64,000 nucleotides of DNA from Pseudomonadota bacterium (GTDB taxonomy: Bacteria; Pseudomonadota; Gammaproteobacteria; Eutrophobiales; Eutrophobiaceae), in contig JABFGI010000003.1 of the NCBI GenBank assembly GCA_013112535.1, positions 206,895 through 270,894 of the forward strand, in the 5' to 3' direction. The position numbers and the translations under genes were made by a program. The notes beneath the pieces are model-generated. The model saw nothing but the letters and a program-made list of their open reading frames with translations, had not been told where the DNA came from and ran no database searches. Positions 23,665 through 44,023 of the stretch are shown here, piece after piece; position 1 is the stretch's first letter, and every line of letters begins with the position of its first letter.

Positions 23665-24894
23665 ATGGCATTAATAGTCCAGAAATATGGTGGGACTTCC
23701 GTTGGCACAGTTGAACGAATTGAAGCCGTCGCCGACAAAGTAATCGAAACCAAAAAACAAGGTAATCAAGTCGTTGTCGTGGTTTCTGCGATGAGTGGAG
23801 AAACGGATCGTCTGTTGTCACTTGCAAAAGATATTACTTCTACACCGACGCCAAGAGAATTAGATGTCTTGTTATCGACTGGCGAGCAAACAACCATTGC
23901 TTTATTAAGTATGGCGTTGGAAGAAAAAGGCCATCCGGCTGTTTCGTATACTGGCGGACAGGTCCATATTCGTACGGATAATGAACATAATAAAGCGCGC
24001 ATAGTCGATATAGAGGGAGCCAAAGTACATAAGCAACTAGCTGAAGGTAAAGTAGTTGTTATTGCCGGCTTTCAGGGCATTGATGAAGATGGAAATATTA
24101 CGACTTTAGGTCGTGGTGGTTCGGACACCACCGCTGTGGCTATGGCAGCAGCACTAAAAGCTGATGAATGTCGCATATATACTGACGTAGATGGTGTATA
24201 TACAGCCGATCCGCGTGTTGTTAGTGATGCGCAACGGTTGCCTCGTATTACTTATGAAGAAATGTTGGAAATGGCCAGCTTAGGTTCAAAAGTATTACAA
24301 ATTCGTTCAGTAGAGTTTGCCAGAAAATATAATGTTAATTTACGTGTGTTATCCAGTTTTGAGGATGGCCCGGGCACGTTGATAACCGATGAGGATGAAA
24401 ATATGGAAGCAGCATTGATATCAGGTATTGCTCATAATAAAGATGAGGCAAAGCTGACCATTGTTGGTGTTCCAGATATGCCTGGAATTGCTTCACAAAT
24501 ACTCGGACCGATAGCCGATGCTAATATCGAAGTCGATATGATTGTACAGAATGTCGGATTAGATAATAAAACTGACTTCACTTTCACGGTAAATCGTAAT
24601 GATTATGAAAAAACGATGGCAATCCTCAAGAAGACGGCGGATGCCATTGGAGCGAAAGAAGTCTCAGGTGATAACAGGATTGTAAAAATTTCTGTAGTGG
24701 GGGTTGGTATGCGCTCACATGCGGGGATAGCCAATATTATGTTTAAGGCATTGGCTGATGAAGGTATAAATATTCAAATGATCTCAACATCAGAGATTAA
24801 GGTTTCTGTTGTTGTGGCCGAAAACTACTTAGAGCTTGGAGTTCGCACATTACATGCGGCTTTCGGCTTGGAAAATGGAGCTATGTCCAAATAG
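23665..24894 (+). CDS. lysC: Aspartate kinase
   Basis: A 409 aa monofunctional aspartokinase, the first step of the lysine, threonine, methionine and diaminopimelate pathway. KYGGTSVG at the N-terminus, GRGGSDTTAVA and TDVDGVYTADPR are typical kinase motifs. Two ACT domains at about residues 265-405 suggest feedback control by Lys and/or Thr. It lies between alaS and csrA as in Pseudomonas and relatives. Confidence 0.97.
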   Translation: MALIVQKYGGTSVGTVERIEAVADKVIETKKQGNQVVVVVSAMSGETDRLLSLAKDITSTPTPRELDVLLSTGEQTTIALLSMALEEKGHPAVSYTGGQVHIRTDNEHNKARIVDIEGAKVHKQLAEGKVVVIAGFQGIDEDGNITTLGRGGSDTTAVAMAAALKADECRIYTDVDGVYTADPRVVSDAQRLPRITYEEMLEMASLGSKVLQIRSVEFARKYNVNLRVLSSFEDGPGTLITDEDENMEAALISGIAHNKDEAKLTIVGVPDMPGIASQILGPIADANIEVDMIVQNVGLDNKTDFTFTVNRNDYEKTMAILKKTADAIGAKEVSGDNRIVKISVVGVGMRSHAGIANIMFKALADEGINIQMISTSEIKVSVVVAENYLELGVRTLHAAFGLENGAMSK

Positions 24895-25054
24895 TTGTTT
24901 AGTCCGAATATGAAGTGTTAAAAATTTTTTATCTTTAAAGTAATGGAAAAAAGATAGGGAATTAAAGCAAAAAAAGAATTATGTATTAAGGACTATACTT
25001 AAAATATAAATTTAGGATATTAGTGAAACTTATGGAAGTTTTAGGAGAATTGAG

Positions 25055-25243
25055 ATGTTGATATTAACTCGGCGGGTAGGTGAATCGTTGATGATCGGAG
25101 ATAACGTTAACGTGACTGTATTGGGTATCCGAGGCAATCAGGTTCGCATTGGTGTTGATGCACCTAAAGATGTCGCTGTACATCGTGAAGAAATTTACGA
25201 TCGCATACAGCAAGAAAAAACAGATGATGTTTCATCAGAATAA
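25055..25243 (+). CDS. csrA: Carbon storage regulator CsrA
   Basis: A 62 aa RNA-binding global regulator that binds GGA motifs in mRNA leaders. [16 protein letters not shown] and the [16 protein letters not shown] region with the RNA-binding arginine are conserved. TAGGAGAATTGAG precedes the ATG; the GGA may permit autoregulation. It is followed by a hairpin and two tRNA genes. Confidence 0.98.
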
Positions 25244-25340
25244 ATTATAGAACTTAATAACTAGTATTTACCCTGAAACCTTGCAAGGGTATCCTATACG
25301 ACCTGTAAATTCGGGGTCGAAAAAACACGTATAAATCAGG

Positions 25341-25366
25341 AAAGTCATCATTATATGGTGACTTTT
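25341..25366 (+). terminator. Terminator-like hairpin after csrA
   Basis: AAAGTCATCA and TGGTGACTTT form a 10 bp stem (one G-T pair) around a TTATA loop and end in TTTT. It lies 97 bp after the csrA stop and upstream of tRNA-Ser. Confidence 0.65.
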
Positions 25367-25427
25367 CGCTGTGTGGATTTGCAAGAAGTAGAATAAGGAC
25401 TTACAAAATAATTTGTGTAGTTGATCT

Positions 25428-25519
25428 GGAGAGGTGGCCGAGTGGCTGAAGGCGCTCCCCTGCTAAGGGAGTATATGGTTTATCCCGTATCGAGGGTTCG
25501 AATCCCTCTCTCTCCGCCA
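25428..25519 (+). tRNA. tRNA-Ser(GCU)
   Basis: A 92 nt cloverleaf with a long variable arm, anticodon loop CTGCTAA (anticodon GCT), T-loop GGTTCGAATCC, a 7 bp acceptor stem (GGAGAGG) and encoded CCA. Its antisense strand produces a well-known spurious reading frame (GFEPSI...LQPLGHLS) that should not be annotated as protein. Confidence 0.97.
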
Positions 25520-25629
25520 TGTCAATAAATGGAATCACGTTTAGAAATATCCAATAATTTAAAAAGAATGATAATTCGGGCTTGCGGCCTGATAACTCAC
25601 TCTTCATAATACGCGGCTTTCCAAACAAC

Positions 25630-25706
25630 GCGCCCGTAGCTCAGCTGGATAGAGTACCTGGCTACGAACTAGGGGGTCGGAGGTTCGAATCCTTCCGGGC
25701 GCGCCA
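25630..25706 (+). tRNA. tRNA-Arg(ACG)
   Basis: A 77 nt cloverleaf with anticodon loop CTACGAA (ACG, to be edited to ICG by TadA), T-arm GGAGGTTCGAATCC and encoded CCA. Its 3' end faces an integrase gene on the opposite strand 83 bp away, marking it as the insertion site of the genomic island that follows. Confidence 0.97.
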
Positions 25707-25789
25707 TCTTTATAAATGAGTTAAAAGCCTTTTATATCAACTGTTTTAGCCATATTTAGAATTTGATTTTGAAATTCGTAAAAGCGTTT

Positions 25790-27211
25790 TTATAAGCCCA
25801 ATGTGGACGTTTTGTGGACACCTTTTCCATGTTTAACCCTGTTTTTCAATATGGTTAGTGTAGGGCCATTTCCCCTTTTCGTTGTGTTGATTGCATTAGC
25901 TGACTTAATCAATGATTCGAGTTCTACCTCTGAATAGTGAGTAGTAATATCATCGTTGGTATGACCGAGAAGTATTTTTCTATCTTCATTAGATATACAC
26001 GCAGAACGCAATCGACGCCCAAAGGTATGCTTTAGATCATGTACTCTCACGTTACAAAACATGCTATGTAATGGCCAAAACGCATCAATGAATCGTCTTA
26101 CAGCTTCTCTCTTAACAACAACACGAATAGCATGATAATCAGATCGTTTTGATTTTGATGCAGGAGGTAATCCTTTCTTTTCACGCTCCTCGTTGTAGTC
26201 ATCCGATGTATACACAACACTGTCATTGGTACCGTCTTTGTTTAAGCCTTTGACTGTAGCAATTACTTTTTGATCTATTCTATCAACGGTAACATCAAGC
26301 GATTGGTAATTACATTTTTTATCATTTTTTACTGCGATTATTGCAGCATCTATTCGTGCAGATTTCCACGCACTATTATTCATCTGACTTAATTTTTTCC
26401 CACGATAATGAAACACATAATGTTCATGTTGGTCACGCATTTTATTGATAATAGCTTTAGCGGTTTTATTTAAAACGATAAGTCTATCTTCTTTATTCTT
26501 GATAAAACCTTTGGGTAAAAGAAAAACAGACGTGTTAAGTTCTGGAACATCTATTTCATAATCCCAGCTTAAGTTGCACACTTCTTTATCACGCAGTCCT
26601 GTATTTACTTTAAAAAGTGCCATCGTTTGTAGATGATCTGGTAAGCAACTAAATAGCCACTTCTGTTCATCATTAGATAAGGGATATGGTTCTCTGGCAT
26701 CATCGTTATCTTGCATTTCGAATGTGGGCGCTTTTTCTAACCATGTCTTCCCGTATTCATCGTGCCACTTATAAGCAGCTAAGTTTATTATTTGTCTGAC
26801 GATGCCAAGTGATAGATTGATGGTTTTGTTTTTACAGCCAGCTTGTTTTCTATCTTTAACAAATTGTTCTAATGATTCATCGAATATTAATTTGAGTGGA
26901 AGATTACCGATGTAGGGATCAAGTAGCTTAAGATGATAAGCACTATCCTTTATGCGTGATTTATCTTGATTCTTTAAAAGGTACTTAGTGGCAGCTTCTC
27001 TAAATGTATAGTCTCGTCTGACACCAAAGAGAGATGCCTTTCGGCATTCCTCAAGTTTGAAAATTAAGACGTCTTGCGCTTTGTTGAAGTCGCTTTCGCC
27101 AGTGCTTTCTCGAATTCTACCGCCTGGCGCGTGTTTGTACCTTTTGTCGATATGCCAGATATCGCCGCGTTTGACGAGTCCGGACTGTTTTTGTGTTGAT
27201 TTGCGTCCCAT
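25790..27211 (-). CDS. Tyrosine-type site-specific integrase
   Basis: A 473 aa integrase with an N-terminal arm-binding and SAM-like core-binding part (residues 1-170) and a catalytic domain. The catalytic residues are R207 (NTGLRDKEV), a Lys in the beta-hairpin near 240, H391 and K394 (HDLKHTFGRR, with Lys in place of the usual second Arg), H417 (LLGHT) and the nucleophile Y426 (THYSEVE). A stretch of about 90 residues (295-385) is inserted before box II, much longer than in phage integrases. It points at tRNA-Arg and should integrate/excise the island. Confidence 0.92.
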   Translation of the reverse strand: MGRKSTQKQSGLVKRGDIWHIDKRYKHAPGGRIRESTGESDFNKAQDVLIFKLEECRKASLFGVRRDYTFREAATKYLLKNQDKSRIKDSAYHLKLLDPYIGNLPLKLIFDESLEQFVKDRKQAGCKNKTINLSLGIVRQIINLAAYKWHDEYGKTWLEKAPTFEMQDNDDAREPYPLSNDEQKWLFSCLPDHLQTMALFKVNTGLRDKEVCNLSWDYEIDVPELNTSVFLLPKGFIKNKEDRLIVLNKTAKAIINKMRDQHEHYVFHYRGKKLSQMNNSAWKSARIDAAIIAVKNDKKCNYQSLDVTVDRIDQKVIATVKGLNKDGTNDSVVYTSDDYNEEREKKGLPPASKSKRSDYHAIRVVVKREAVRRFIDAFWPLHSMFCNVRVHDLKHTFGRRLRSACISNEDRKILLGHTNDDITTHYSEVELESLIKSANAINTTKRGNGPTLTILKNRVKHGKGVHKTSTLGL

Positions 27212-27417
27212 GTAGTTTCTCCTACTTCTTTTGGGGGACGCCCGTACTTATTTATAAAATCATCAATTAAACGATCAACTTCCTTTCTGTCGAAAGCGAT
27301 TCCTTGTATACCAATAGGTACTTCAGTTAGTTTATTTCGAAACTCGTTATTAAATCGATTGCGATCCATACCTAAGTACATCGGCATGTCACGAAGACGT
27401 ATTAATCGTGGTTGCAT
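27064..27417 (-). CDS. Excisionase-like small DNA-binding protein
   Basis: A 117 aa protein of a family often encoded just upstream of, and overlapping, this type of integrase (overlap 148 bp here). The first 55 residues (LIRLRDMPMYLGMDRNRFN, EIPIGIQGIAFDRKEVDRLI-like) resemble the AlpA/excisionase winged-helix pattern, where an AFDR segment follows a recognition helix. The C-terminal half is hydrophilic and overlaps the integrase in another frame. It probably controls excision direction or integrase expression. Confidence 0.65.
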   Translation of the reverse strand: MQPRLIRLRDMPMYLGMDRNRFNNEFRNKLTEVPIGIQGIAFDRKEVDRLIDDFINKYGRPPKEVGETTWDANQHKNSPDSSNAAISGISTKGTNTRQAVEFEKALAKATSTKRKTS

Positions 27418-27639: not shown

Positions 27640-27867
27640 CTATTCTTGGTCTTGAACGTATTCCATTAACTCGCCAGGCTGGCAATTGAAATATTTACAG
27701 AGAGTGTCGATTGTATCTGTAGTAGTTGAGTAAGTAGGTTGGTTTGCAATTCGACTGATGGTTTGCCGAGCTAAGTTAGTCGCTTCAACAACATCATTTA
27801 TCGTTACTCTTTTCCCATCCTTAAAGGACTTCTCTTCGAGTAAGGCTTTAATCTTGAATCGTATCAT
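27640..27867 (-). CDS. XRE/Cro-CI type repressor
   Basis: A 75 aa HTH_3/HTH_26 protein (ATG at 27867; an upstream TTG at 27873 would add two residues). The helix-turn-helix TINDVVEATNLARQTISRIA is followed by STTTDTIDTLCKYFNCQPGELMEYV, the usual XRE C-terminal segment. It is divergent from the HNH/ankyrin-AAA operon. Three repeated operators between the two genes imply that it represses both promoters in a phage-like switch. Confidence 0.85.
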   Translation of the reverse strand: MIRFKIKALLEEKSFKDGKRVTINDVVEATNLARQTISRIANQPTYSTTTDTIDTLCKYFNCQPGELMEYVQDQE

Positions 27868-27885: not shown

Positions 27886-27959
27886 GTAATCTATAAAATT
27901 ACTATTGTAACACTATAAGTGACAAAATGCTTGACGTAACCTTATAAGTTACGTATAAT
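27886..27959. promoter_or_regulatory. Three-operator control region with plus-strand promoter
   Basis: Three 17 bp dyads of the form GTAAY-N7-RTTAC: 27886-27902 (GTAAT/ATTAC), 27907-27923 (GTAAC/GTGAC, one mismatch) and 27936-27952 (GTAAC/GTTAC). The third sits exactly in the 17 bp spacer of a consensus promoter, TTGACG (27931-27936) and TATAAT (27954-27959). The first two lie where the promoter of the minus-strand repressor gene must be. This is a compact lambda-like switch. Confidence 0.8.
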
Positions 27960-28008
27960 GCATTACAAGTTACATCTTCCAGTCTAAAAGTCATATCAGG
28001 AGTTGAAC

Positions 28009-28596
28009 ATGTCTATTAAATGCAAAAAATGCACTTCATTAGAAATTCATAATAAAAAAAGAAGCTTGTGTAAGAAGTGCTATTTCAGCTGGTATAACAA
28101 AACCCAACGTAATAAAGAGGATGAAAGAATTCGACTTGCCGAATATAAAAAGAATTATCCGGAAAAGGTCATGCTTGCCAACTTTAGAACTTCAGCTAAG
28201 AAACAAGGTATTTCAATAAATCTGACTAGCGAATGGATTAAAGAAAAGCTAGATAAAGGAGTATGTGAGGCATCAGGTCTTCCGATAGTTAAAAAACCAT
28301 ATTTAAAAGGTGATAGAGGTAGACGTACTTTCTATGCTGCTTCACTCGATAGAATCGACAACAGTTTAGGATATACGCAAGAAAACTGTCGTATCGTTTG
28401 TTGGGGTTATAACCTAATCAAAAATAATTATACAGATCGTGATGTAAATGCATTTGTAATTTCAATGATGCTCCAATTCATACACAAAGATACTCGGTTA
28501 GATTTGCTAAATATGTTACCCGAATATTGTTTGGAATTTTTGCCAACACAAAGTAAGCATTCAAAATTAATAAAAGAAGTTCAGGCTTCTGTATAA
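28009..28596 (+). CDS. Zinc-finger/HNH-like endonuclease-type protein
   Basis: A 195 aa protein. The N-terminus has a zinc-ribbon-like pair (CKKC and LCKKC within 27 residues). The central part holds SLDRIDNSLGYTQENCRIVC and YNLIKN, a pattern shared with phage HNH-type proteins where D, N and N replace the classical H-N-H. ATG 28009 is chosen because AGGAG ends 6 bp upstream. It is the first gene of an operon with the ankyrin-AAA+ gene (16 bp gap), driven by the repressor-controlled promoter. A nicking, homing or defence nuclease is possible; activity is unproven. Confidence 0.65.
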   Translation: MSIKCKKCTSLEIHNKKRSLCKKCYFSWYNKTQRNKEDERIRLAEYKKNYPEKVMLANFRTSAKKQGISINLTSEWIKEKLDKGVCEASGLPIVKKPYLKGDRGRRTFYAASLDRIDNSLGYTQENCRIVCWGYNLIKNNYTDRDVNAFVISMMLQFIHKDTRLDLLNMLPEYCLEFLPTQSKHSKLIKEVQASV

Positions 28597-28612
28597 CAGG
28601 AGATGATTATCA

Positions 28613-29983
28613 ATGCATCGTCATGATTTAGATTGGTACCTTATCAGTAAAGTAAGTGAATCAAATGCTGATCTCGAAAACATAATAGTAATCTTAAACC
28701 TTGGTGCATCAATTGATGCAATTAATAGCGTCACTGAAGATACAGTACTAATGATTGCTATCGTTAAAGGTCATAAAGAGATAGCTAACTATATGTCGGA
28801 ACGAATGAATTATATAGACACGCAAAATAAAGAAGGTAAAACAGCTCTAATGTATGCAGCTGAAAATAATTTTTCATATGTTGTTAAGAAGTTGTTAGAA
28901 CGAGGCGTAGATTTATCGTTGAAGGATAAAGAAGGCAGATTAGCTGTTGATTATGCGATCACACCAAAAATAATAAAATTGTTTGAGGATGAAGAAGAGA
29001 AGAAAACTGTTGAAACTGCTGTGCCCGAAGAAAAATTTATACTATTTGATAAAGATGCATTAGAAAAAGAGATTGAAGAAGAAGAAAGTGAAAGGCGTGA
29101 GAAGAGTTTAAAACAGTTAAATAAGTCTGGGCATATAAGAGAGTTAATAGAAGTAAAGGATAATGCAATAAATGAAATACAATCATTGGATTTAAAGTTT
29201 CCAAACTTTACCAAAGCAATAGAGTTTTTTTCAAAGCAATTACACTTATGTAATTTAACAGATGAGCGTGTTGTTGAGTTAAAGCCATTGTTATTGGTTG
29301 GTACCGCCGGCATAGGAAAGACACAGTTCTGTAACGAGGTAGCTGCAGTACTTAACTTGAGCTTAAATATAATCCAATGCAATACAGTGACGGCTGGCTT
29401 TGTTTTAGGAGGAGGTAGTTCTCAATGGAGTGGGGCTCGTCCAGGTAAAATCCATACTATTTTACGAGACTGTAAAGAAGCCAATCCATTTATTCTATTA
29501 GACGAAATTGATAAAATGTCGGGTGATAGTCGGTATGACTGTTACGGCTCTCTATACTCTTTATTAGAAAAAAATACCGCAAAAATATTTGTTGATGAGC
29601 TACTTGAGTTTCCCATGGATTACTCTCACATCAATTGGATCGCGACAGCGAATGACATTCATTCTATACCAATAGCAATTAGGTCACGCTTTTCTATTCT
29701 TAATATGAGAGAACCGAATAAAGATGAGATAAAAATAATAACAGCATCGATATATCACAATATCTTAAAAGAGAATAAATGGGGGAAGCATTTCTCAAAT
29801 AATTTAGATGATGGGCTGCTCTCGTTATTATCAGGAATTTCACCTAGGCAGATAAAGTCTGTCTTAATCAGTGCTTGTGGAAAAGCTGCAATGCAGAGAA
29901 ATTGTGTCCAATATGAGCTTGGGTTTGATGACATTGATGTAAGTCTGGTAGACAAAATGCCTACTATCGGTTTTACAAATTAA
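28613..29983 (+). CDS. Ankyrin-repeat AAA+ ATPase
   Basis: A 456 aa fusion. Residues 1-125 hold about three ankyrin repeats (KEGKTALMYAAENNFSYVVKKLLERG). A charged coiled-coil linker (125-185) follows, then an AAA+ domain. Walker A is GTAGIGKT (230-237), Walker B FILLDEID (293-300), sensor 1 N347 (IATAND) and Arg finger R357/R359 (IRSRF). The ATPase part resembles Lon-type AAA+ modules but there is no protease domain. Downstream of the HNH-like gene, so the pair may be a nuclease/ATPase system. I do not recognise this exact architecture as a named defence system. Confidence 0.75.
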   Translation: MHRHDLDWYLISKVSESNADLENIIVILNLGASIDAINSVTEDTVLMIAIVKGHKEIANYMSERMNYIDTQNKEGKTALMYAAENNFSYVVKKLLERGVDLSLKDKEGRLAVDYAITPKIIKLFEDEEEKKTVETAVPEEKFILFDKDALEKEIEEEESERREKSLKQLNKSGHIRELIEVKDNAINEIQSLDLKFPNFTKAIEFFSKQLHLCNLTDERVVELKPLLLVGTAGIGKTQFCNEVAAVLNLSLNIIQCNTVTAGFVLGGGSSQWSGARPGKIHTILRDCKEANPFILLDEIDKMSGDSRYDCYGSLYSLLEKNTAKIFVDELLEFPMDYSHINWIATANDIHSIPIAIRSRFSILNMREPNKDEIKIITASIYHNILKENKWGKHFSNNLDDGLLSLLSGISPRQIKSVLISACGKAAMQRNCVQYELGFDDIDVSLVDKMPTIGFTN

Positions 29984-30128: not shown

Positions 30129-31106
30129 ATGCCAACAGATTTATCGGATACTCTTGTAATTGGAATTTCTGCTACGGCTTTATTTGATTTGAGTGAAGCT
30201 GATAAAGTATTCAGAGATAAATATCACAAGGATAAAGATACTGCTATTGCAGAATATCGTGATTATATGTTGCAAAGAGAACAAGACTCATTAAACGATG
30301 GTACCGGTCTGCCTCTTGTTGATGCATTACTAAAACTTAATCAATACCATTCAAAAGATGAGGCACCACTTGTAGATGTGGTTGTAATGTCGAGAAACAG
30401 TCCAGAAACTGGTGTAAGAGTATTAAACAATATACGTCAAAGAGAGATAAATATAGCTAGACATGCTTTTACTGGAGGAGAATCTGTTGTTGATTATCTA
30501 GATGCGTATGATGTCGATTTATTTTTAACTACTAGCATTAAAGATGCTCAAAGAGTTATAGATGGAAAGACCTGTGCTGCTGCAATAGTTAAAGAGCCAC
30601 CAAGCGATAAAGCAAAAATACCAGAAGGACAAGTCAGGCTAGCTTTTGATGGAGATGCTGTTATCTTTGATGAAAAAAGTGAGCTTGTATATAAGGCAGA
30701 AGGATTAGATGCCTTTATTGAAAAAGAAGATGCCGAACAAGATTTACCAATGGGAGAAGGTCCATACGCAGTTTTGTTAAAAAAACTATCTAGGTTGCAG
30801 GAGCGATTACCATTTAGTGTCGAATATTCACCTGTGAGAATTGCTATTGTTACAGCACGTAGTGCCCCGGCCGAGATGAGAGTTATTAACACACTAAGAC
30901 ATTGGGGTGTTTATGTTGATGAAGTCTTTTTTTTAGGTGGTTTAGATAAATCTAAGATATTGAAAGCATTTAAAGCACATATTTTCTTTGATGATCAGGA
31001 TTTACATTTGGAAGCGGCATCAAGGGTGGTGCCTTCAGGAAAAGTACCGTATCAGTCAGACTCACTACTAAACAAGACAATCAAAAATAATATAGAACCT
31101 GAATAA
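30129..31106 (+). CDS. 5'-nucleotidase (NT5C1-like family)
   Basis: A 325 aa protein of the bacterial 5'-nucleotidase family related to eukaryotic cytosolic NT5C1. The N-terminal LVIGISATALFDLSEAD (with S/T in place of the first HAD Asp context), LVDVVVMSRNSPETGVRV, RLAFDGDAVIFDEKSE and VRIAIVTARSAPAEMRV are typical, and HIFFDDQDLH carries the acidic end motif. It should dephosphorylate nucleoside monophosphates. It sits alone between the ankyrin-AAA+ gene and the WYL regulator within the island; a nucleotide-depleting defence role is speculation. Confidence 0.85.
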   Translation: MPTDLSDTLVIGISATALFDLSEADKVFRDKYHKDKDTAIAEYRDYMLQREQDSLNDGTGLPLVDALLKLNQYHSKDEAPLVDVVVMSRNSPETGVRVLNNIRQREINIARHAFTGGESVVDYLDAYDVDLFLTTSIKDAQRVIDGKTCAAAIVKEPPSDKAKIPEGQVRLAFDGDAVIFDEKSELVYKAEGLDAFIEKEDAEQDLPMGEGPYAVLLKKLSRLQERLPFSVEYSPVRIAIVTARSAPAEMRVINTLRHWGVYVDEVFFLGGLDKSKILKAFKAHIFFDDQDLHLEAASRVVPSGKVPYQSDSLLNKTIKNNIEPE

Positions 31107-32312: not shown

Positions 32313-32433
32313 GATACGAGATAATGTTATCCAGAAAAATGGGGGGATTAATAATAACTTTATTAATTCTATTAAATTCATACTGTTATAAGCAGGTTGG
32401 TCATTAATTAAAATGATGAGCCTGAGGAGAAAA

Positions 32434-32712
32434 ATGATGAAATGTGAAAAAACACACGATACACCAGGTCAGAACAAGGAGTTTAATATAATTGTTAATG
32501 GTCGCTCGAAGCAGTTTTCAAAGAAAAAGATTTCATTTATTGAGGTGGTTGAATTGGCATTTAACGTGACCGAAATCGATGAAAATACCTGTTACACCGT
32601 CGCTTACCGAAAAGGTGAAGGAAAGAAAAAAGAAGGCATTATGGTAGAAGGTGATGTTATACGCGTTAAAGAAGGAATGATATTTGATGTCACACAAACT
32701 GATAAATCATAG
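32434..32712 (+). CDS. Ubiquitin-like protein (multiubiquitin-domain family, single domain)
   Basis: A 92 aa protein matching the bacterial multiubiquitin (Multi_ubiq) beta-grasp domain: FNIIVNGRSKQFSKKKISF, then IEVVELAF, then CYTVAYRKGEGKKKEGIMV and a VIRVKEGMIFDVTQTDKS end. The start is put at ATG 32434, which has GAGGAG 4 bp upstream; ATG 32413 is an alternative. Only one Ubl domain is present and the C-terminus lacks the diglycine of classical ubiquitin. The stop overlaps the E1-like gene by 26 bp, so synthesis is coupled to its predicted activating enzyme. Confidence 0.85.
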   Translation: MMKCEKTHDTPGQNKEFNIIVNGRSKQFSKKKISFIEVVELAFNVTEIDENTCYTVAYRKGEGKKKEGIMVEGDVIRVKEGMIFDVTQTDKS

Positions 32713-33868
32713 CGCGGATTTAAAAAAGTTACGTGACCAGGGATACGAGGTCGAGATAACTTCAGGTTATCTCATCGTATCACATGTACCTTATTTAAAT
32801 TGCAAAAGAGAGATTAAATATGGAACCCTTGTTTCTGAGTTAACATTAGCAGGTGATAAGACAGCAAAACCTAAAGATCATATTATTCATTTTATTGGTG
32901 AATATCCATGTGATAAAAACGGTGTCGAAATTCCACAGATTAAAAATCAGTGCCAGACAAAGACCTTAGCTGAAGGAATTGTTATCAATTATTCATTTTC
33001 AAATAAACCGAAGAACGGTTATTCAGATTATTTTGAAAAAGTTGTTCGATATATAGAAATAATATCCGCGCCACCGCGTTCTATAGATCACACAATAACT
33101 GCTCAAACATACAAAGTTATCAAAGATAAAGAAGAATCAACCGTATTCAAATATATAGACTCTAATTCCAGTCGGGCTGATATTATTAAAGTAACGGAAA
33201 AGATCAAAGATCAAAAAATTGCCATTATAGGTTTAGGAGGATCAGGCGCTTACGTTTTAGATTTTATTGCAAAAACACCAATTGCAGAAATCCATCTATA
33301 TGATGATGATAAATTTAATCAACACAACGCATTTAGATCGCCTGGCGCTGCAAGCATTAGTGATTTAGAAGACCAATTACTGAAAGTTGAATATTATGAA
33401 AATGTTTATTCAAACATGCATCGTAATATTATTACGCATGCCTATAAGATAGAAGAAAGTAATGTTGAAGAATTATTAGGGTTCGATTTTATTTTTATAT
33501 GTATTGATAGCGGCATTGAAAAGAAACGTATTTTTGATGTTTTGATTAATGGAAGTATTCCCTTTGTCGATGTAGGTATGGGAATCGAAAATAATGATGA
33601 CAAACTGACAGGGATGCTTCGAGTGACTGCTAGCAGTGAGCAAAAAAATGATCATGTAAATAATAAGATTATTTCATTCTCTGATAATGATAATGACGCA
33701 ATATATAAAAAGAACATACAAATAGCCGAGTTAAATGCATTGAATGCTGCTTATGCAGTTATTAAATGGAAAAAACACTTTGGTTTTTTTGATGATCAAG
33801 AACACGAAAATCATAGTTTATATGTCATTGCTGGGAATAATGTAATTAATGAATTCCATAACACATAA
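32687..33868 (+). CDS. E1-like ThiF protein with N-terminal DUF6791-type domain
   Basis: A 393 aa protein. Residues 5-135 form the DUF6791-type domain (YLIVSHVPYLNCKREIKYGT, DHIIHFIGEYPC, RYIEIISAPPRSID). Residues 170-390 are a ThiF/E1 adenylation domain with GLGGSGAYVLD (182-192), YDDDKFNQHNAFR and ICIDS (D274). Such E1s adenylate the C-terminus of a Ubl. No obvious catalytic cysteine follows the adenylation site (LTGMLRVTAS region), so the thioester step may be absent or use the N-terminal domain. Start ATG 32687, overlapping the Ubl gene by 26 bp; overlaps the DUF6527 gene by 20 bp. Confidence 0.85.
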   Translation: MSHKLINHSADLKKLRDQGYEVEITSGYLIVSHVPYLNCKREIKYGTLVSELTLAGDKTAKPKDHIIHFIGEYPCDKNGVEIPQIKNQCQTKTLAEGIVINYSFSNKPKNGYSDYFEKVVRYIEIISAPPRSIDHTITAQTYKVIKDKEESTVFKYIDSNSSRADIIKVTEKIKDQKIAIIGLGGSGAYVLDFIAKTPIAEIHLYDDDKFNQHNAFRSPGAASISDLEDQLLKVEYYENVYSNMHRNIITHAYKIEESNVEELLGFDFIFICIDSGIEKKRIFDVLINGSIPFVDVGMGIENNDDKLTGMLRVTASSEQKNDHVNNKIISFSDNDNDAIYKKNIQIAELNALNAAYAVIKWKKHFGFFDDQEHENHSLYVIAGNNVINEFHNT

Positions 33869-34268
33869 ATATGTTGAATATATACCGGCTACGCTTGATG
33901 AAGGTGTGGTGTATATATCGAAAAAGTATAAAACAATGGTCCACAAATGTTGTTGTGGATGTGGAAATGAAGTCGTTACGCCAATGGGAAAGACAGACTG
34001 GCAACTTACCGAAGAGACTGAGTCGATCTCTATATACCCATCAATCGGAAATTGGGGTTTTAAATGTAAGTCGCATTACTGGATTAATAAAAACAGGGTG
34101 CTATGGTCAGACCAATGGTCTGAAGATATGATAAAAGCTGGAAGACGAAGCGACAGACTTAAAAAAGAGGCGTACTATAAAAATGAAAGTGGTGATGCAT
34201 ACCCTGTTACTAATATTATTAGCCAATTATTACAAAGCTTAAAGAATTGGTGGAATAATTTATTTTAG
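33849..34268 (+). CDS. DUF6527 zinc-binding protein of the Ubl cassette
   Basis: A 139 aa protein with two metal-binding clusters: C34-C35-C36 and C38 (CCCGCG), and C73-x2-H76 (CKSHYWI), separated by GKTDWQLTEE and SIYPSIGNWGF. This is the DUF6527 pattern that regularly follows Multi_ubiq and DUF6791-ThiF genes. The treble-clef-like zinc site suggests an E3-like or target-recognition role, but this is inference. It overlaps the E1-like gene by 20 bp, making Ubl-E1-DUF6527 one tightly coupled unit. Confidence 0.82.
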   Translation: MNSITHKYVEYIPATLDEGVVYISKKYKTMVHKCCCGCGNEVVTPMGKTDWQLTEETESISIYPSIGNWGFKCKSHYWINKNRVLWSDQWSEDMIKAGRRSDRLKKEAYYKNESGDAYPVTNIISQLLQSLKNWWNNLF

Positions 34269-37436: not shown

Positions 37437-37440
37437 TGTG

Positions 37441-38904
37441 ATGAAAACTTATAAACAAATAATCAGTTATAAACGGCTTCGAAATGAAACTGCATGGAAA
37501 TTATTGGCTACTGATAACGCACCTATTACATTAGCATTATTAACCACACACTTGCTTGATAAAGAACGTCTTTTACCAAGTTCAATCTTACATGAACGTC
37601 TTAATCGCGAACTAGAACAACTACGAGTGCATGGTGAAGATTTACCACAGACGGCACAAAATTATATTAGTACATGGTTAAAATCTGGTTTTCTTGAGCG
37701 CTCTTATGAACCGCAAGCCAAGGAAGAAATGTACGAACTTAGCGCTGCTACAGTTCAGGCTATTCGATTTATTCAGGGCCTAACTGAAAAACGTACAGTA
37801 GCGACAGAAAGTCGTTTATCTTTAGTCATTCAGCAACTTGGAGCTTTAGCTGAACAAACTGAGCCAGACCCAGAATCTCGGATAAAAAATTTATTAAAAG
37901 AGCAGCAACGTATTGATGCAGAAATAGCAGCAATACGAGAAGGTAAGTTTGAAGTGTTAGCCGATGAACGTGCTTTGGAAAGGGCACGAGAACTTGTCGC
38001 GTTATCAGATGAACTCGCTAATGATTTCTCGCAGGTTCGTACTCGCTTCCAAGAACTCAACCGACAATTACGAGAGAGTATTGTTGAAAATGAAGGTAGT
38101 CGTGGAGATGTCCTTCAATCTGTGTTTGAAGGTGTAGATATTATATCTGAATCTGAAGAGGGACGTACATTCAGAGCTTTTTGGAGGTTGCTGACTGACC
38201 CAGAGCAAAGTATGGAATTGGAAGTTGCGCTTGAACAGATATTGTCACGGGATTTCTCAGAGAAGCTTGAGCGACGTGAGCGGCGGTTTTTATTACAACT
38301 GACACGAATATTATTAGAACGTGGAGAACATGTTCATGAAGTGTTACAACATTTTGCTCGTGGTTTAAAACAATTTGTACAAAGTCGAGAATATCAAGAA
38401 CAGAGAAGAATAAATAAATTATTAAAATTAGCGCAACGCAATGCACTGGAAATTAAAAATGATATTAATTTGTTTAAAGAAGTGGGTTACACATTAACGC
38501 TATCCAGTAGTAAGGTAGCATCATTATCCCAATGGGCTTTACATGATCCTAGCCTTGATGAAGTAGACTCGGATATTCAACAAGCTGACGGTGCAGAAAT
38601 ATCTCTAGAGTCGATAGGTGAGTTAGTCGCTCAGTCTGAAATTGATTTTCGTAAACTTAAACAAAACATCTGTCATTTACTCGAACAACATCAACAAATA
38701 TCAATTGCACAGGTATTGGATAATTATCCTGCTGAACAGGGTTTGGGTAGTATCATTGGCTATATGTCACTTGGTTCCAGGCACGGGGTTATATCAGAAG
38801 AACAAAAAGAAATTGTTGAATGGTCTGGTATGGATTCCCAATCTCGTAAAGCGACTATTCCTTGTATTTATTTTATGAGTGAGCGTAGCCATGAGTTCGG
38901 ATGA
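37441..38904 (+). CDS. jetA: Wadjet protein JetA (DUF3375)
   Basis: A 487 aa MukF/kleisin-like subunit of the Wadjet anti-plasmid SMC complex (family DUF3375). Typical are the N-terminal YKRLRNETAWKLLATDNAP winged-helix region, the coiled-coil KNLLKEQQRIDAEIAAIREG and the STWLKSGFLERSYE segment. The JetABCD complex loops and cleaves small circular DNA. GTG 37438 could be the start, but ATG 37441 fits better. Length is normal. It overlaps jetB by 14 bp. Confidence 0.95.
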   Translation: MKTYKQIISYKRLRNETAWKLLATDNAPITLALLTTHLLDKERLLPSSILHERLNRELEQLRVHGEDLPQTAQNYISTWLKSGFLERSYEPQAKEEMYELSAATVQAIRFIQGLTEKRTVATESRLSLVIQQLGALAEQTEPDPESRIKNLLKEQQRIDAEIAAIREGKFEVLADERALERARELVALSDELANDFSQVRTRFQELNRQLRESIVENEGSRGDVLQSVFEGVDIISESEEGRTFRAFWRLLTDPEQSMELEVALEQILSRDFSEKLERRERRFLLQLTRILLERGEHVHEVLQHFARGLKQFVQSREYQEQRRINKLLKLAQRNALEIKNDINLFKEVGYTLTLSSSKVASLSQWALHDPSLDEVDSDIQQADGAEISLESIGELVAQSEIDFRKLKQNICHLLEQHQQISIAQVLDNYPAEQGLGSIIGYMSLGSRHGVISEEQKEIVEWSGMDSQSRKATIPCIYFMSERSHEFG

Positions 38905-39529
38905 AGAAATAATGGAAGAAGATACCAAAAGTGAATTATATCCCGGTGATGTGGGTAAGTTACCGGAAGATGTCAGGCGGGTACTCATACAATTACTATC
39001 AGGGCCATTAATCGATAGTAAACGACATAGCAACCTTTGGTCTGTGTTGTTACGTCATCAAGATGTAATACGTTCCAGATTATCAGAATTATTCCTTGAA
39101 CTAATCATTGATCAGGAAATAGAGGTAGCATTCACTCGGCAAGCCGATACTGCTGAGCTTGATGCGCCAAAGCTATTACGACGAAGTCCACTTTCTTTTT
39201 TAGATACGGCATTGATACTTTATCTTCGACAATTATTAGCCGATGCTGACATGCAAGGTGAGCGTGCAGTTGTATCAAGTGTGGAAATGGTTGAGCAAAT
39301 GAAACTGTATGAAAAAAGTCAAAGTACGGATCAGGCAGGTTTTGAAAAACGGATTAATGCTGCAATTGAAAAAGCCAGGAAAAATACCGTTCTCAACATT
39401 ATTAAAGGTAGTGAAGATCGTTATGAAATATCACCAACACTAAAATTACTTTTTAATGCGGAAGAAATTTCTGCGTTAACAAAAATTTATGCAAGTTATA
39501 AGGATGAATCATCAAGGATGGCTACTTAA
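38891..39529 (+). CDS. jetB: Wadjet protein JetB (DUF4194)
   Basis: A 212 aa MukE/kite-like subunit (DUF4194) that binds the JetA kleisin. Family features visible are LPEDVRRVLIQLLSGPLID, the RHQDVIRSRLSELFLELIID stretch, LLRRSPLSFLDTALILYLRQ and GSEDRYEISPTLKLLFNAEE. ATG 38891 is preferred; a GTG at 38879 would add four residues. Its stop overlaps the jetC ATG by 1 bp (TAATG). Confidence 0.94.
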   Translation: MSSDEEIMEEDTKSELYPGDVGKLPEDVRRVLIQLLSGPLIDSKRHSNLWSVLLRHQDVIRSRLSELFLELIIDQEIEVAFTRQADTAELDAPKLLRRSPLSFLDTALILYLRQLLADADMQGERAVVSSVEMVEQMKLYEKSQSTDQAGFEKRINAAIEKARKNTVLNIIKGSEDRYEISPTLKLLFNAEEISALTKIYASYKDESSRMAT

Positions 39530-42500
39530 TGAATACAAATATTACGCCGATAGATAGCGAATGGGTCATGCCATCCCCGCAGTATCGTATGCAGCGATTG
39601 CAAGTTTATAATTGGGGTACGTTTTCAAAACTCCATGATATTCCTATTGCTGTAGATGGTTTTCTGTTTGTCGGTCGCTCCGGTTCTGGTAAATCAACAT
39701 TACTTGATGCCCTATCTGCGCTTATGGTTCCTCCTACATGGTTAAGTTTTAATGCTGCTGCCCGTGAAGGTGATAAGGGACGATATGACCGCAATCTGCC
39801 TTCCTATATTCGTGGAGCATGGGCTGATCAGGAAGATACAGGATCAGGTGAAATTGCGACTCAGTATTTAAGACCCACATCAACTTGGTCAGCATTAGCA
39901 TTGGAATATGTTAATGACGATGGTTCAGTCATGAGCCTTATCCAAATATTTTGGTTGCGCGGTAGTTCTAACCAAACCAGAGACGTTAGACGCCATTTTA
40001 TGATTGCTGAACGATCATTCGACATTTCATCAGAATTAAAAGAGTTTAATTTAGACCTTAGGAAGTTAAAAAGTCGCTTGGAAGATGTCTATCATTTTGA
40101 GAGTTTCAAACCCTATTGTGAACGGTTTAGACGGATGCTGGGTATAGAGTCAGAAATGGCGCTTAAGTTATTGCACAAGACTCAATCAGCTAAAAACTTG
40201 GGTGATTTAAATGATTTCCTACGTGATTTTATGCTGGATAAGCCGAAAACATTTGATGTTGCAGAACGCTTAACTCAAGAATTTTCTGAACTGGATGCGG
40301 CACATCAAGCAGTTGTTACAGCACGTAAACAAGTTGAAATATTAAAACCAGCGCGAACAAACTTTGAAAAATCACAAGAGATTGATAAGGAATTAAGTGA
40401 TATTGATGCGTTGTTGGATGGTATAGATGTTTATCGTGACGAATATAAAGTTAAATTAATCGATAAAGAAATCGATAAACTGAAAATAGATGTGCAAGGG
40501 TTGGCTGGAGAGGAACAAAAACAAAGAGCCATTCTAAATAATTACAAAACAGAGTTGTTGCCGCTAGAAGATCAACATAGAGATTTAGGCGGGGGTCAAA
40601 TAGAACAACTAGAAGAGAATAAACAGCAAAAAGAGCAAGAACGTGATCAACGACTTATTAAACATAATCAAGCAAGTGAGGCTTGTAAACAATTAGAGTG
40701 GACATTAGCTAACACACCTCAGCGACATGCAGAGTTGGTAGCAGACGCGAAAAATATTGTTGAATCATGGAAAGATATAAATGATCAAGCTGAACAAAGA
40801 CGTGATGAGTTACGTGATAAGGAAAAAGAGATAGAAAAAGAATTCATCGAAGCGCGTAAAGAAATTACTGTAATGCAAACTCAGCCTTCTAACATTCCTT
40901 CATTTATGCTGGAGTTGCGCCAAACAATTACTGATGCGTTAGGCTTAGCTGAGTTAGATTTACCTTTTGCAGGTGAATTAATAGATGTAAAAGAGCACGA
41001 GCGAGAATGGCAAGGTGCGATAGAAAGAGTATTGCATGGTTTTGCACTTTCTATGTTAATCAGTGAACGACACTATGCTGCGTTTACGAAATATGTTGAT
41101 GAAACCAATTTAAAGAAAAGACTTGTTTATTACAAAATCACCACAGATTACAGGCTAAACCAGAATAATATTCAACATAGTTCATTAATACATAAGTTGA
41201 ATATTAAAGAAAACTCTTACTATGACTGGATAACTAATGAACTAAATCGTCGGTTTGATTATGCCTGTGTCGATAATCTTAATGATTTTCGTAGAACTGA
41301 ACGAGCAATTACACGGCAAGGGCAAATTCGACATGGTAAATCAAGGCATGAAAAGGATGATCGTTCTGCTATTGATAATGAGCTTAATTGGGCATTGGGA
41401 TTTAATAATCAGGAAAAATTAAAGCTGTATCAAGAACGAGCTCAACAATTGGCGACAGAAATCAGTCAAATTGATGAGGCACTTAAAAGCCTATCCAGTG
41501 AAAAAGAACAGCAACAAGAACAGTATAGTTCTGCGCATGTACTAGTCAATTTACAATGGCAAGATATAGATATGGCAAGCGTTATGGATCGTATCGGGCT
41601 ATTGGAAAAACAATTAAAAGAATTACGTAGCGGCAATCGTGAGCTTCAAAATTTAAGTAATCAGATACAAGGGTTAAAACAGAAAATTAATGAAGTCGAT
41701 GAATTATTGAGAACGATAGGTGCTAAAAGTTTAAAGATTGAGAACGATATTGAAATACATAAAGCTGATATAGAAGCCCTTAGGTTGCAGCTCACAGGAA
41801 GTTTTTTAACAGAAGAACAAAGACAGGGTCTTGATGAACGTTTAAAGAGCTTGAATAAAACACTTGATATAAAAAACATTGATTCAGAATTCACAGCTAT
41901 TGAACGTAAATTAAACACTGAACGAACCATTCATGAAAAGGATCGTAATAAACTTATTAATGCCATAGAAAAATCGTATTCAGAATTCATCAGGGAGTGG
42001 CCGGTTGAGTCTGCAAATCTTGATGCGACTATGGAGTCCACATCTGAGTTCATACAACTCTTACAAAGATTAGAAACAGATGGCTTGCCGAATTTTGAAG
42101 GTCGATTCTATGAAATGCTCAAGAATCAAAGTACTGAAAATCTGGCAACACTCAATAAATATATCGTCGAAGCGCGTAAAGAAATTCGCGAACGTATGGA
42201 GTTAGTTAATGAAAGTTTAGCGAATGCTGATTTTAATCCTGGCACGCATTTACGTATTGAAGTAAATGACCGTCATTTGTCTCAGGTTAAGGAATTTAGA
42301 GAGCATATTAATAGTGTGCTTGAGTATGCATGGCAAATGGATAGAGAAGAGGCAGAATCACGTTTTAATATACTACGTAACATTGTAAATAAGCTTTCCA
42401 GTCAAGAGAATGAGGATCAACGTTGGCGAGCGTTAGTGCTTGATGTGCGACAGCATGTTGAATTTATTGGTCGTGAATCGGATAAAGACGGTAAAGAGCT

Positions 42501-42894
42501 GGAAATATATCGCTCCGGTGCAGGCAAGTCAGGTGGACAGAGAGAAAAACTGGCGACGACCTGTTTAGCGGCAGCTCTCCGTTATCAGTTAGGAGGGGTC
42601 GATGATGGTATTCCAATTTATGCCCCTGTTGTATTAGATGAAGCATTTGGTAAAGCCGATAATGAGTTTACTGAATTAGCGATGAAAATCTTCACTGCAT
42701 TTCAATTCCAGATGATTGTGGCAACACCTTTAAAGTCAGTGATGACATTAGAACCTTTTATTGGTGGAGCTTGCTTTGTCGATATTGCTGATCGAAAACG
42801 TTCAGCGACGATGCAGATTGAGTATGACCAACAACAACATAAACTAAACCTACCGGAAAAAGCTCGTGGCGAAAACCTTTCTGCTGAAGCCTGA
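39529..42894 (+). CDS. jetC: Wadjet SMC-like ATPase JetC
   Basis: A 1121 aa MukB/SMC-like motor. Walker A GRSGSGKST (residues 49-57) lies in the N-terminal head; two long coiled-coil arms (about 270-480 and 620-870) flank a hinge-like region, and the C-terminal head has SGGQREKLATTCLAAALRYQ (signature) and VVLDEAFGKAD (Walker B). This arrangement matches the DNA-looping motor of type I Wadjet. Length matches the family. Overlaps jetD by 29 bp. Confidence 0.96.
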   Translation: MNTNITPIDSEWVMPSPQYRMQRLQVYNWGTFSKLHDIPIAVDGFLFVGRSGSGKSTLLDALSALMVPPTWLSFNAAAREGDKGRYDRNLPSYIRGAWADQEDTGSGEIATQYLRPTSTWSALALEYVNDDGSVMSLIQIFWLRGSSNQTRDVRRHFMIAERSFDISSELKEFNLDLRKLKSRLEDVYHFESFKPYCERFRRMLGIESEMALKLLHKTQSAKNLGDLNDFLRDFMLDKPKTFDVAERLTQEFSELDAAHQAVVTARKQVEILKPARTNFEKSQEIDKELSDIDALLDGIDVYRDEYKVKLIDKEIDKLKIDVQGLAGEEQKQRAILNNYKTELLPLEDQHRDLGGGQIEQLEENKQQKEQERDQRLIKHNQASEACKQLEWTLANTPQRHAELVADAKNIVESWKDINDQAEQRRDELRDKEKEIEKEFIEARKEITVMQTQPSNIPSFMLELRQTITDALGLAELDLPFAGELIDVKEHEREWQGAIERVLHGFALSMLISERHYAAFTKYVDETNLKKRLVYYKITTDYRLNQNNIQHSSLIHKLNIKENSYYDWITNELNRRFDYACVDNLNDFRRTERAITRQGQIRHGKSRHEKDDRSAIDNELNWALGFNNQEKLKLYQERAQQLATEISQIDEALKSLSSEKEQQQEQYSSAHVLVNLQWQDIDMASVMDRIGLLEKQLKELRSGNRELQNLSNQIQGLKQKINEVDELLRTIGAKSLKIENDIEIHKADIEALRLQLTGSFLTEEQRQGLDERLKSLNKTLDIKNIDSEFTAIERKLNTERTIHEKDRNKLINAIEKSYSEFIREWPVESANLDATMESTSEFIQLLQRLETDGLPNFEGRFYEMLKNQSTENLATLNKYIVEARKEIRERMELVNESLANADFNPGTHLRIEVNDRHLSQVKEFREHINSVLEYAWQMDREEAESRFNILRNIVNKLSSQENEDQRWRALVLDVRQHVEFIGRESDKDGKELEIYRSGAGKSGGQREKLATTCLAAALRYQLGGVDDGIPIYAPVVLDEAFGKADNEFTELAMKIFTAFQFQMIVATPLKSVMTLEPFIGGACFVDIADRKRSATMQIEYDQQQHKLNLPEKARGENLSAEA

Positions 42895-44023
42895 AGATTT
42901 AACGCAGCGCCTACGTCAACGCTATAAAAAGCAGAATAAGCAATGGCTGATTGGTAATACAAACTGGCCAATAAGCTTTCCTTTAGGAGTCCCTACAGAG
43001 AGTCAAGCATATGAATATTTAAATGATGTGCAGCAATGGCAAAATCTATGGATGAATTGGGATGGAGAAGGCGAAATTCAATGGGTTGAGCGTCATTGGT
43101 CAAAATTAGGCAAGCAAAAACTACCTGAAAAAATAGTTATTGATACTCCTATACAAATTACTCGTTGGGTTGGCGAGGAACAAAACTGGATTAAAGTAAC
43201 ACAACGTTATCAAAAGTTAATAAATGCATGGCCTAGCCTCACAACAATTCTGTCTAAATATTTTAAAGTTTTACAAGAATATGATGAGCTAGATTTCGAT
43301 AGATTGTTTGCGGTGTTAGAGTGGTTAATAGAACATCCAAGTTCAAATCTATATATACGTCAGTTACCTATTGAAGGTATCCATACAAAATGGCTTATAA
43401 ATAGAAAATCAATGATTGCAGAATTCATTAAAACCATAACAGAGTCCGATGATAGCAATTTTTATCAAATCGCGGGCTTAAGACAAGAGCCAACGATGAT
43501 ACGAATTCGATTGTTAGATGAACAATTACGAGATTGTGTTAGTGGGGTAGGTGATTTATCCATTTCATTAGACTATTTGAAGACATTAATTTTACCTGTT
43601 GAAAAAGTGTATATTGTAGAAAATTTACAGACAGGTTTAGCTTTCAATGATGTGCCAGGTTCTATTGTTATTATGGGACTTGGTTACTCAGTAGATATAT
43701 TGCAGGAAGTTCAGTTGCTCCATGATTGCCCTATATACTATTGGGGAGATATAGATACAGATGGTTTCGCCATATTAAACCGACTAAGGAATTATTTCCC
43801 ACAGGTGCAATCTCTTTTAATGGATGAATCAACATTTCTTGAACATGAAAAATTATGGGGTTCAGATGAAACTCCAAAGACATCAACTAATTTGCCAATG
43901 CTAACCAAGGCGGAGAAAAAACTTTATGATGATCTATGCAATAACCGATGGATGAAAAATTTAAGATTAGAACAAGAACATATTTCATGGCCTTACGCAT
44001 TAGAAGTATTATCTTCCTTATAA
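42866..44023 (+). CDS. jetD: Wadjet nuclease JetD (DUF3322/DUF2220)
   Basis: A 385 aa topoisomerase VI/Spo11-like nuclease subunit which cleaves the looped DNA. The N-terminal DUF3322 part is followed by a Toprim-like DUF2220 domain with VYIVENLQTGLAF (catalytic Glu) and YYWGDIDTDGFAIL (metal-binding DxD near residues 293-300). GTG 42866 is the start (GGAAAAAG SD). All four Jet genes are intact and overlapping, so the system is probably functional. Confidence 0.95.
   Translation: MAKTFLLKPEDLTQRLRQRYKKQNKQWLIGNTNWPISFPLGVPTESQAYEYLNDVQQWQNLWMNWDGEGEIQWVERHWSKLGKQKLPEKIVIDTPIQITRWVGEEQNWIKVTQRYQKLINAWPSLTTILSKYFKVLQEYDELDFDRLFAVLEWLIEHPSSNLYIRQLPIEGIHTKWLINRKSMIAEFIKTITESDDSNFYQIAGLRQEPTMIRIRLLDEQLRDCVSGVGDLSISLDYLKTLILPVEKVYIVENLQTGLAFNDVPGSIVIMGLGYSVDILQEVQLLHDCPIYYWGDIDTDGFAILNRLRNYFPQVQSLLMDESTFLEHEKLWGSDETPKTSTNLPMLTKAEKKLYDDLCNNRWMKNLRLEQEHISWPYALEVLSSL

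Follow-up and report, generated by a model that had tools for sequence, protein, structure and literature searches.

A regulator, a PacI-like HNH protein and an ankyrin-AAA+ ATPase form a conserved gene set on gammaproteobacterial islands: a candidate inducible defence module

Gene organization of the locus

What is the function of an operon that joins an HNH-like protein to an ankyrin-repeat ATPase next to the integrase of a genomic island? The question was raised by a stretch of 64,000 nucleotides, hereafter called the window, of a member of the Eutrophobiaceae (Gammaproteobacteria; assembly GCA_013112535.1, contig JABFGI010000003.1, positions 206,895 to 270,894). An earlier note on this DNA had proposed a repressed nuclease/ATPase pair of the toxic defence kind. 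Our preferred reading, to which we give a probability of about one half, is that the two genes and their regulator constitute a mobile, switchable (inducible) nuclease/ATPase module of defence islands, probably directed against phages or plasmids.

The first gene (28009-28596, + strand, 195 aa) encodes the HNH-type nuclease with an N-terminal Zn ribbon and the second (28613-29983, + strand, 456 aa) an ATPase composed of ankyrin repeats and a Lon-type AAA+ domain. Both ORFs are intact, run in the same direction and are separated by 16 nt, as expected for the operon that had been proposed; AGGAG ribosome sites precede the HNH gene (27998-28002) and the ATPase gene (28598-28602). The HNH gene is flanked by a divergent gene for a 75-aa Cro/C1-type regulator, a putative repressor (27640-27867, - strand; Pfam HTH_26, E 3.7e-16). 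Behind it lie a small gene (27064-27417, - strand), whose product matches phrog_13517 (E 6.8e-19), a family of unknown function, and then the tyrosine recombinase (integrase) of the island (25790-27211, - strand). Pfam (Phage_integrase, E 5.7e-11) and PHROG (PHROG 1 integrase, E 1.9e-33) both support the integrase neighbourhood that had been noticed from the sequence. The small gene overlaps the integrase start and stands in the position of an excisionase gene; we call its product AlpA-like, a reading from gene position. A 5'-nucleotidase gene (30129-31106, + strand; PF06189, E 3e-111) is found downstream of the ATPase gene and matches the PADLOC candidate defence gene PDC-S08 (407 bits). It was considered as a third operon gene and left out because of the 145 bp gap and because it is absent from the other copies of the module.

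Conservation and distribution

The regulator, HNH and ATPase genes (the trio) occur together and in the same order at three of three loci, two of them in the window's genome and one in the congeneric genome G409. The conserved HNH/ankyrin-AAA pair, whose search the earlier note had suggested, was thus found adjacent at every locus, regulator included, with a gap of 12-16 nt between the HNH and ATPase genes. The second copy of the window's genome (locus C1) has the same arrangement, and its products are 38% (ATPase, over the full length), 32% (HNH protein) and 41% (regulator) identical to those of the window. Since the HNH protein and the ATPase differ by about 62-68% between the two copies, these do not result from a recent duplication. 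The ATPase gene of the G409 copy is cut by the contig end. Comparison of C1 with G409 gave dN 0.16 and dS 1.9 for the ATPase, and dN 0.31 with saturated dS for the HNH protein. Changes are mostly synonymous, which indicates that both genes are under purifying selection.

Although real and mobile, the trio has a narrow distribution. Nuclease and ATPase coincide in their occurrence over the 53 genomes of the order: the same two genomes have both, and the other 51 have neither. In a class-wide sample (n = 369), the window's genome was the only one to yield the HNH protein. When IMG/VR was scanned for the pair, no relative of the HNH protein of the trio was recovered with the queries used, and only Lon-like genes for the ATPase. 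Plasmids yielded no HNH relative; they carry AAA relatives, without HNH gene. The genome contig search gave two distant AAA matches only. A phage origin of the HNH-ATPase pair as a unit was considered and is not supported, since none of the virus, plasmid and contig scans produced the pair.

Promoter and regulator

A sigma-70 promoter, TTGACG-N17-TATAAT (27931-27959, + strand), precedes the HNH operon and agrees with the consensus at 11 of 12 positions, a score that 0.4% of shuffled sequences attain. At C1 and in G409 the HNH gene is preceded by TTGACA-N16-TATAAT, a 12/12 match that was obtained in none of 500 shuffles. The spacer of the window promoter includes a palindrome with 7-bp arms, ACGTAACCTTATAAGTTACGT (27934-27954), a putative operator that by itself falls short of significance (15% of shuffles). 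In the G409 copy the -35 box is overlain by a palindrome with 10-bp arms (0.6% of shuffles). The arrangement, in which a small divergent gene for a repressor-like protein is opposed to a strong promoter, agrees with a module that is held shut until needed, and the HNH operon is probably repressed by the regulator.

Relatives of the regulator accompany the module at C1 and in G409. In other families close relatives are located beside integrases; frequently type I restriction genes follow directly, or WYL-Wadjet genes are found nearby. The HTH_26-type regulator appears to mark a type of island whose integrase-side cargo is usually a defence system.

The ankyrin-AAA+ ATPase

The ATPase matches Ank_2 (E 2.7e-13) and AAA (E 1.2e-15), the ankyrin part covering approximately residues 20-115 and the Lon-type AAA+ part residues 217-375. 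Ank_2 is also detected in the other two copies (E 2.4e-7 and 1e-7). When aligned with Lon-type ATPases, the protein retains Walker A (G230...GKT237), Walker B (D297-E298), the sensor-1 residue N347 and the Arg finger R359; the intact Walker motifs and Arg finger read from the sequence by the earlier note are thus present. The best match is TIGR00763 (Lon; E 6e-24), over residues 225-372, the ATPase part only. Domain scans found no Lon protease domain, the protein ending at residue 456. A role in phage replication, the function that the earlier note had set against its own proposal, was not found for this protein, whose nearest relatives are the AAA domains of Lon. In particular, the reading as a clamp loader was rejected, the PHROG clamp loader match (E 1e-9) being far weaker than that to Lon (6e-24). 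The AlphaFold model has a mean pLDDT of 61 and was for this reason kept out of the fold searches.

AAA relatives without ankyrin repeats are scattered over the phylum. Many are isolated chromosomal genes that have no defence genes as neighbours, so that this AAA family is not specific to defence. In one genome of another family of the class (G171, locus L045), an AAA relative lies beside an HD protein, together with an integrase, a regulator of the same kind and type I restriction genes. In a distant family (f207), a Lon-type AAA gene and a gene for a calcineurin-like metallophosphoesterase form one operon at six of six loci examined (L218, L219, L220, L221, L222 and L227). We know of no name for this pair. 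The phosphoesterase and HD operon partners suggest that the pairing of an AAA motor with a hydrolase recurs in the family.

The island and its cargo

The gene for tRNA-Arg(ACG) (25630-25706) lies beside the integrase. Its last 45 bases and the 10 bp beyond constitute a 55-bp perfect direct repeat (25662-25716, + strand), an attL-like island end. The second copy, without mismatch, is located 50,024 bp downstream (75686-75740 in window numbering; G000:C3:282580-282634), about 127 bases before the contig end. A repeat search of the window gave no attR copy, this being situated just beyond it. Because these repeats bound the element, the window holds most of an integrative island of 50.0 kb. The tRNA spot on the lysC side is an integration site in two families of the class, that of G171 (L045) and that of the window (23665-25716).

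The island also carries a complete type I Wadjet system (JetA, JetB, JetC and JetD; 37438-44023, + strand). Genes for Multiubiquitin, DUF6791-ThiF (E1-like) and DUF6527 proteins follow each other in a row (32413-34268, + strand) and correspond to a bacterial ubiquitin-like conjugation cluster. A WYL-type regulator gene on the opposite strand precedes this cluster, and the island genes from about 45.8 kb onwards read as heavy-metal efflux. At C1 the module stands between a pair of genes, for an integrase and an AlpA-like protein, and a type I restriction operon. There and in G409 the module and a type I restriction operon are arranged head to head, the restriction genes being found directly behind the regulator. 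At these few loci, three of three, the trio is a conserved gene set on defence islands, accompanied by Wadjet in the window and by type I restriction at C1 and G409.

This location also raises the possibility, which we regard as rather unlikely, that the trio serves the element itself rather than acting against phages, for instance as an excision switch, in nick-and-load replication or in addiction. The alternatives considered here and below are not mutually exclusive. The module is beside the integrase at both loci where the contig shows it, and the AlpA-like gene adjoins it, as in many phage satellites. In G171 the regulator relative (59% identical), the integrase and the AAA relative likewise share one island end. 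However, the same trio is found with a different integrase from locus to locus. Moreover, the orientation of the module to the integrase is not kept, the operon running towards it at C1 and away from it in the window. No replication, packaging, primase or relaxase gene was recognised by eye among the ORFs of the window's island, and the best AAA relatives are Lon proteins, not helicase loaders. Defence is favoured over island housekeeping mainly because the pair occupies the integrase-side place of such regulator-marked islands. Against the defence reading are the rarity of the pair, the absence of a family-level match among the PADLOC and NCBIfam defence models, the lack of defence specificity of the AAA family and the integrase-side location, which suits island control as well.

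The HNH-type protein

The HNH protein carries an N-terminal CxxC...CxxC motif and an HNH-like C-terminal half, which matches the PHROG endonuclease family 3322 (E 3.6e-31). The three bacterial members tested matched no model in the Pfam copy searched. The site is PacI-like: D114-R115-x-D117...G121-Y122...N126...N135. In an alignment of the window protein with 33 viral relatives (n = 34), C86, D114, R115, D117, G121, Y122, T123, N126 and N135 are invariant. The C1 copy has Glu at position 114, so that the putative metal ligands are conserved, as D or E at position 114 and as N135. The His that serves as general base in textbook HNH enzymes is replaced by Arg in 34 of 34 aligned sequences. The name HNH-like given in the earlier note is therefore right, but a textbook HNH site is not present, its place being taken by a D-R-I-D motif without the classical His.

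The AlphaFold model (pLDDT 86) has PacI as its best structural match, first in Foldseek (probability 1.00) and aligned with a VIA Z of 8.0 over 85 residues at 2.6 A; the Gme HNH nicking enzyme gave Z 6.2. On this model the protein is predicted to adopt the beta-beta-alpha-metal fold. PacI is also its best PDB sequence match, a weak one (E 0.11), and in the alignment it too has Arg at the position of the His.

Could the protein be catalytically dead through the replacement of His by Arg, and act as a DNA-binding protein or as an anti-sigma factor like phage Srd? The His is missing from the D-R-I-D motif in the whole alignment, and there is weak similarity to the PHROG families called Srd anti-sigma factor and sigma-70 decoy. 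However, this explanation is improbable. According to a review (PMC4081073), Asp and Asn are the metal ligands of PacI, and the general base is Tyr rather than His. As PacI is active with Arg at the same aligned position, the missing His does not mean a dead enzyme, and the metal-ligand positions are conserved in the protein described here.

Very improbable, finally, is a phage-derived homing-type endonuclease lodged by the regulator next to an unrelated ATPase gene, with no joint system: the closest HNH relatives are indeed free-standing genes inserted between core phage genes and most AAA relatives have no HNH neighbour, but gene order, the short gap and the promoter are common to the three loci although the window and C1 copies are only ~32-38% identical, and the same two genomes of the order have both nuclease and ATPase. 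The wider HNH family, with a conserved D-R-x-D and no His, is large and abundant in phage contigs (loci L120-L204).

Comparison with known systems

Neither PADLOC 2.0 nor NCBIfam 20.0 gave a family-level match, in agreement with the earlier note, which did not recognise the pair as a named system. Among the papers listed by literature searches on ankyrin, AAA and HNH defence systems, none described it. The HNH protein shares with PacI (3LDY/3M7K) the D-R...N...N pattern in which Arg replaces His. However, the two are only 21% identical, the protein described here has longer N- and C-terminal parts, its gene is not adjacent to one for a cognate methyltransferase, and no Tyr was assigned to it as general base. 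The phage HNH endonucleases (PHROG 3322, 1035 and 3118; Pseudomonas phages AAT-1 and PaMx28) belong to the same family and exhibit the motif S-x-D-R-x-D...GYT.DN......N. They lie alone in phage genomes, whereas the HNH gene described here belongs to bacterial islands and is accompanied by a regulator gene and an ATPase gene.

The closest named family of the ATPase core is the Lon protease (TIGR00763), with the catalytic residues of the ATPase aligned. The protein lacks however both the Lon N-domain, in whose place the ankyrin repeats are found, and the Ser-Lys protease domain. Septu (PtuA ATPase and PtuB HNH) and the retron-borne PtuAB are alike in outline, being two-gene combinations of an ATPase and an HNH nuclease, but the ATPase described here differs in being a Lon-type AAA+ protein with ankyrin repeats. 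The window proteins had no match to PtuA or PtuB of PADLOC at E up to 1, and the C1 copies had none at E 0.001. The AAA part is weakly similar to IetA of IetAS (E 6e-9, 34.3 bits), a score far below the NCBIfam IteA cut-off of 510 bits; there is no IetS protease here, the partner being a nuclease. BrxL of BREX is described as a Lon-like AAA+ ATPase used in phage defence (PMC10164562). No BREX genes were recognised near the trio and no BrxL match was obtained at the score limits used. Phage satellites of the PICI and P4-like kinds combine an integrase and AlpA with replication and packaging genes in a small element. The island has an integrase and a putative AlpA-like gene, but it is 50 kb long, carries defence and metal-efflux cargo and, by eye, showed no recognisable primase or packaging gene.

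A possible mode of action

In the defence module that we favour, the Cro/C1 protein would bind between the divergent genes and keep a very strong promoter shut. Loss of repression, for example on phage entry or on transfer of the island, would lead to co-production of nuclease and ATPase. The ATPase, whose ATPase residues are intact, might assemble into an ATP-driven ring. Recognition, either of the nuclease or of a foreign protein, may fall to its ankyrin part, and the nuclease could be loaded or released by means of ATP hydrolysis. The HNH protein, with its predicted fold and conserved ligands, would then use a PacI-like metal site to cleave nucleic acid and stop the invader or the infected cell. 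Such a module would be an uncatalogued combination of an ATPase and a nuclease, with a non-textbook HNH active site and a motor descended from Lon.

A broader conjecture, which we hold to be doubtful, is that the Lon-derived, protease-less AAA+ family provides a shared motor to mobile defence modules. The phosphohydrolase, metal-dependent in every case, would vary from module to module (a PacI-like HNH protein in the trio, a calcineurin-like or HD protein at other loci), a Cro/C1 regulator would often be included, and the ankyrin repeats would be the recognition part of the present variant.

If true, the defence reading would also help to explain why many islands have a small Cro/C1 regulator of this kind placed between the integrase and genes for restriction or Wadjet. 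The 75-aa Cro/C1 regulator is observed in many families (loci L256-L265 and L045), beside integrase, HD/TraI_2-like, type I restriction or Wadjet genes, and is possibly the marker of a defence-island platform.
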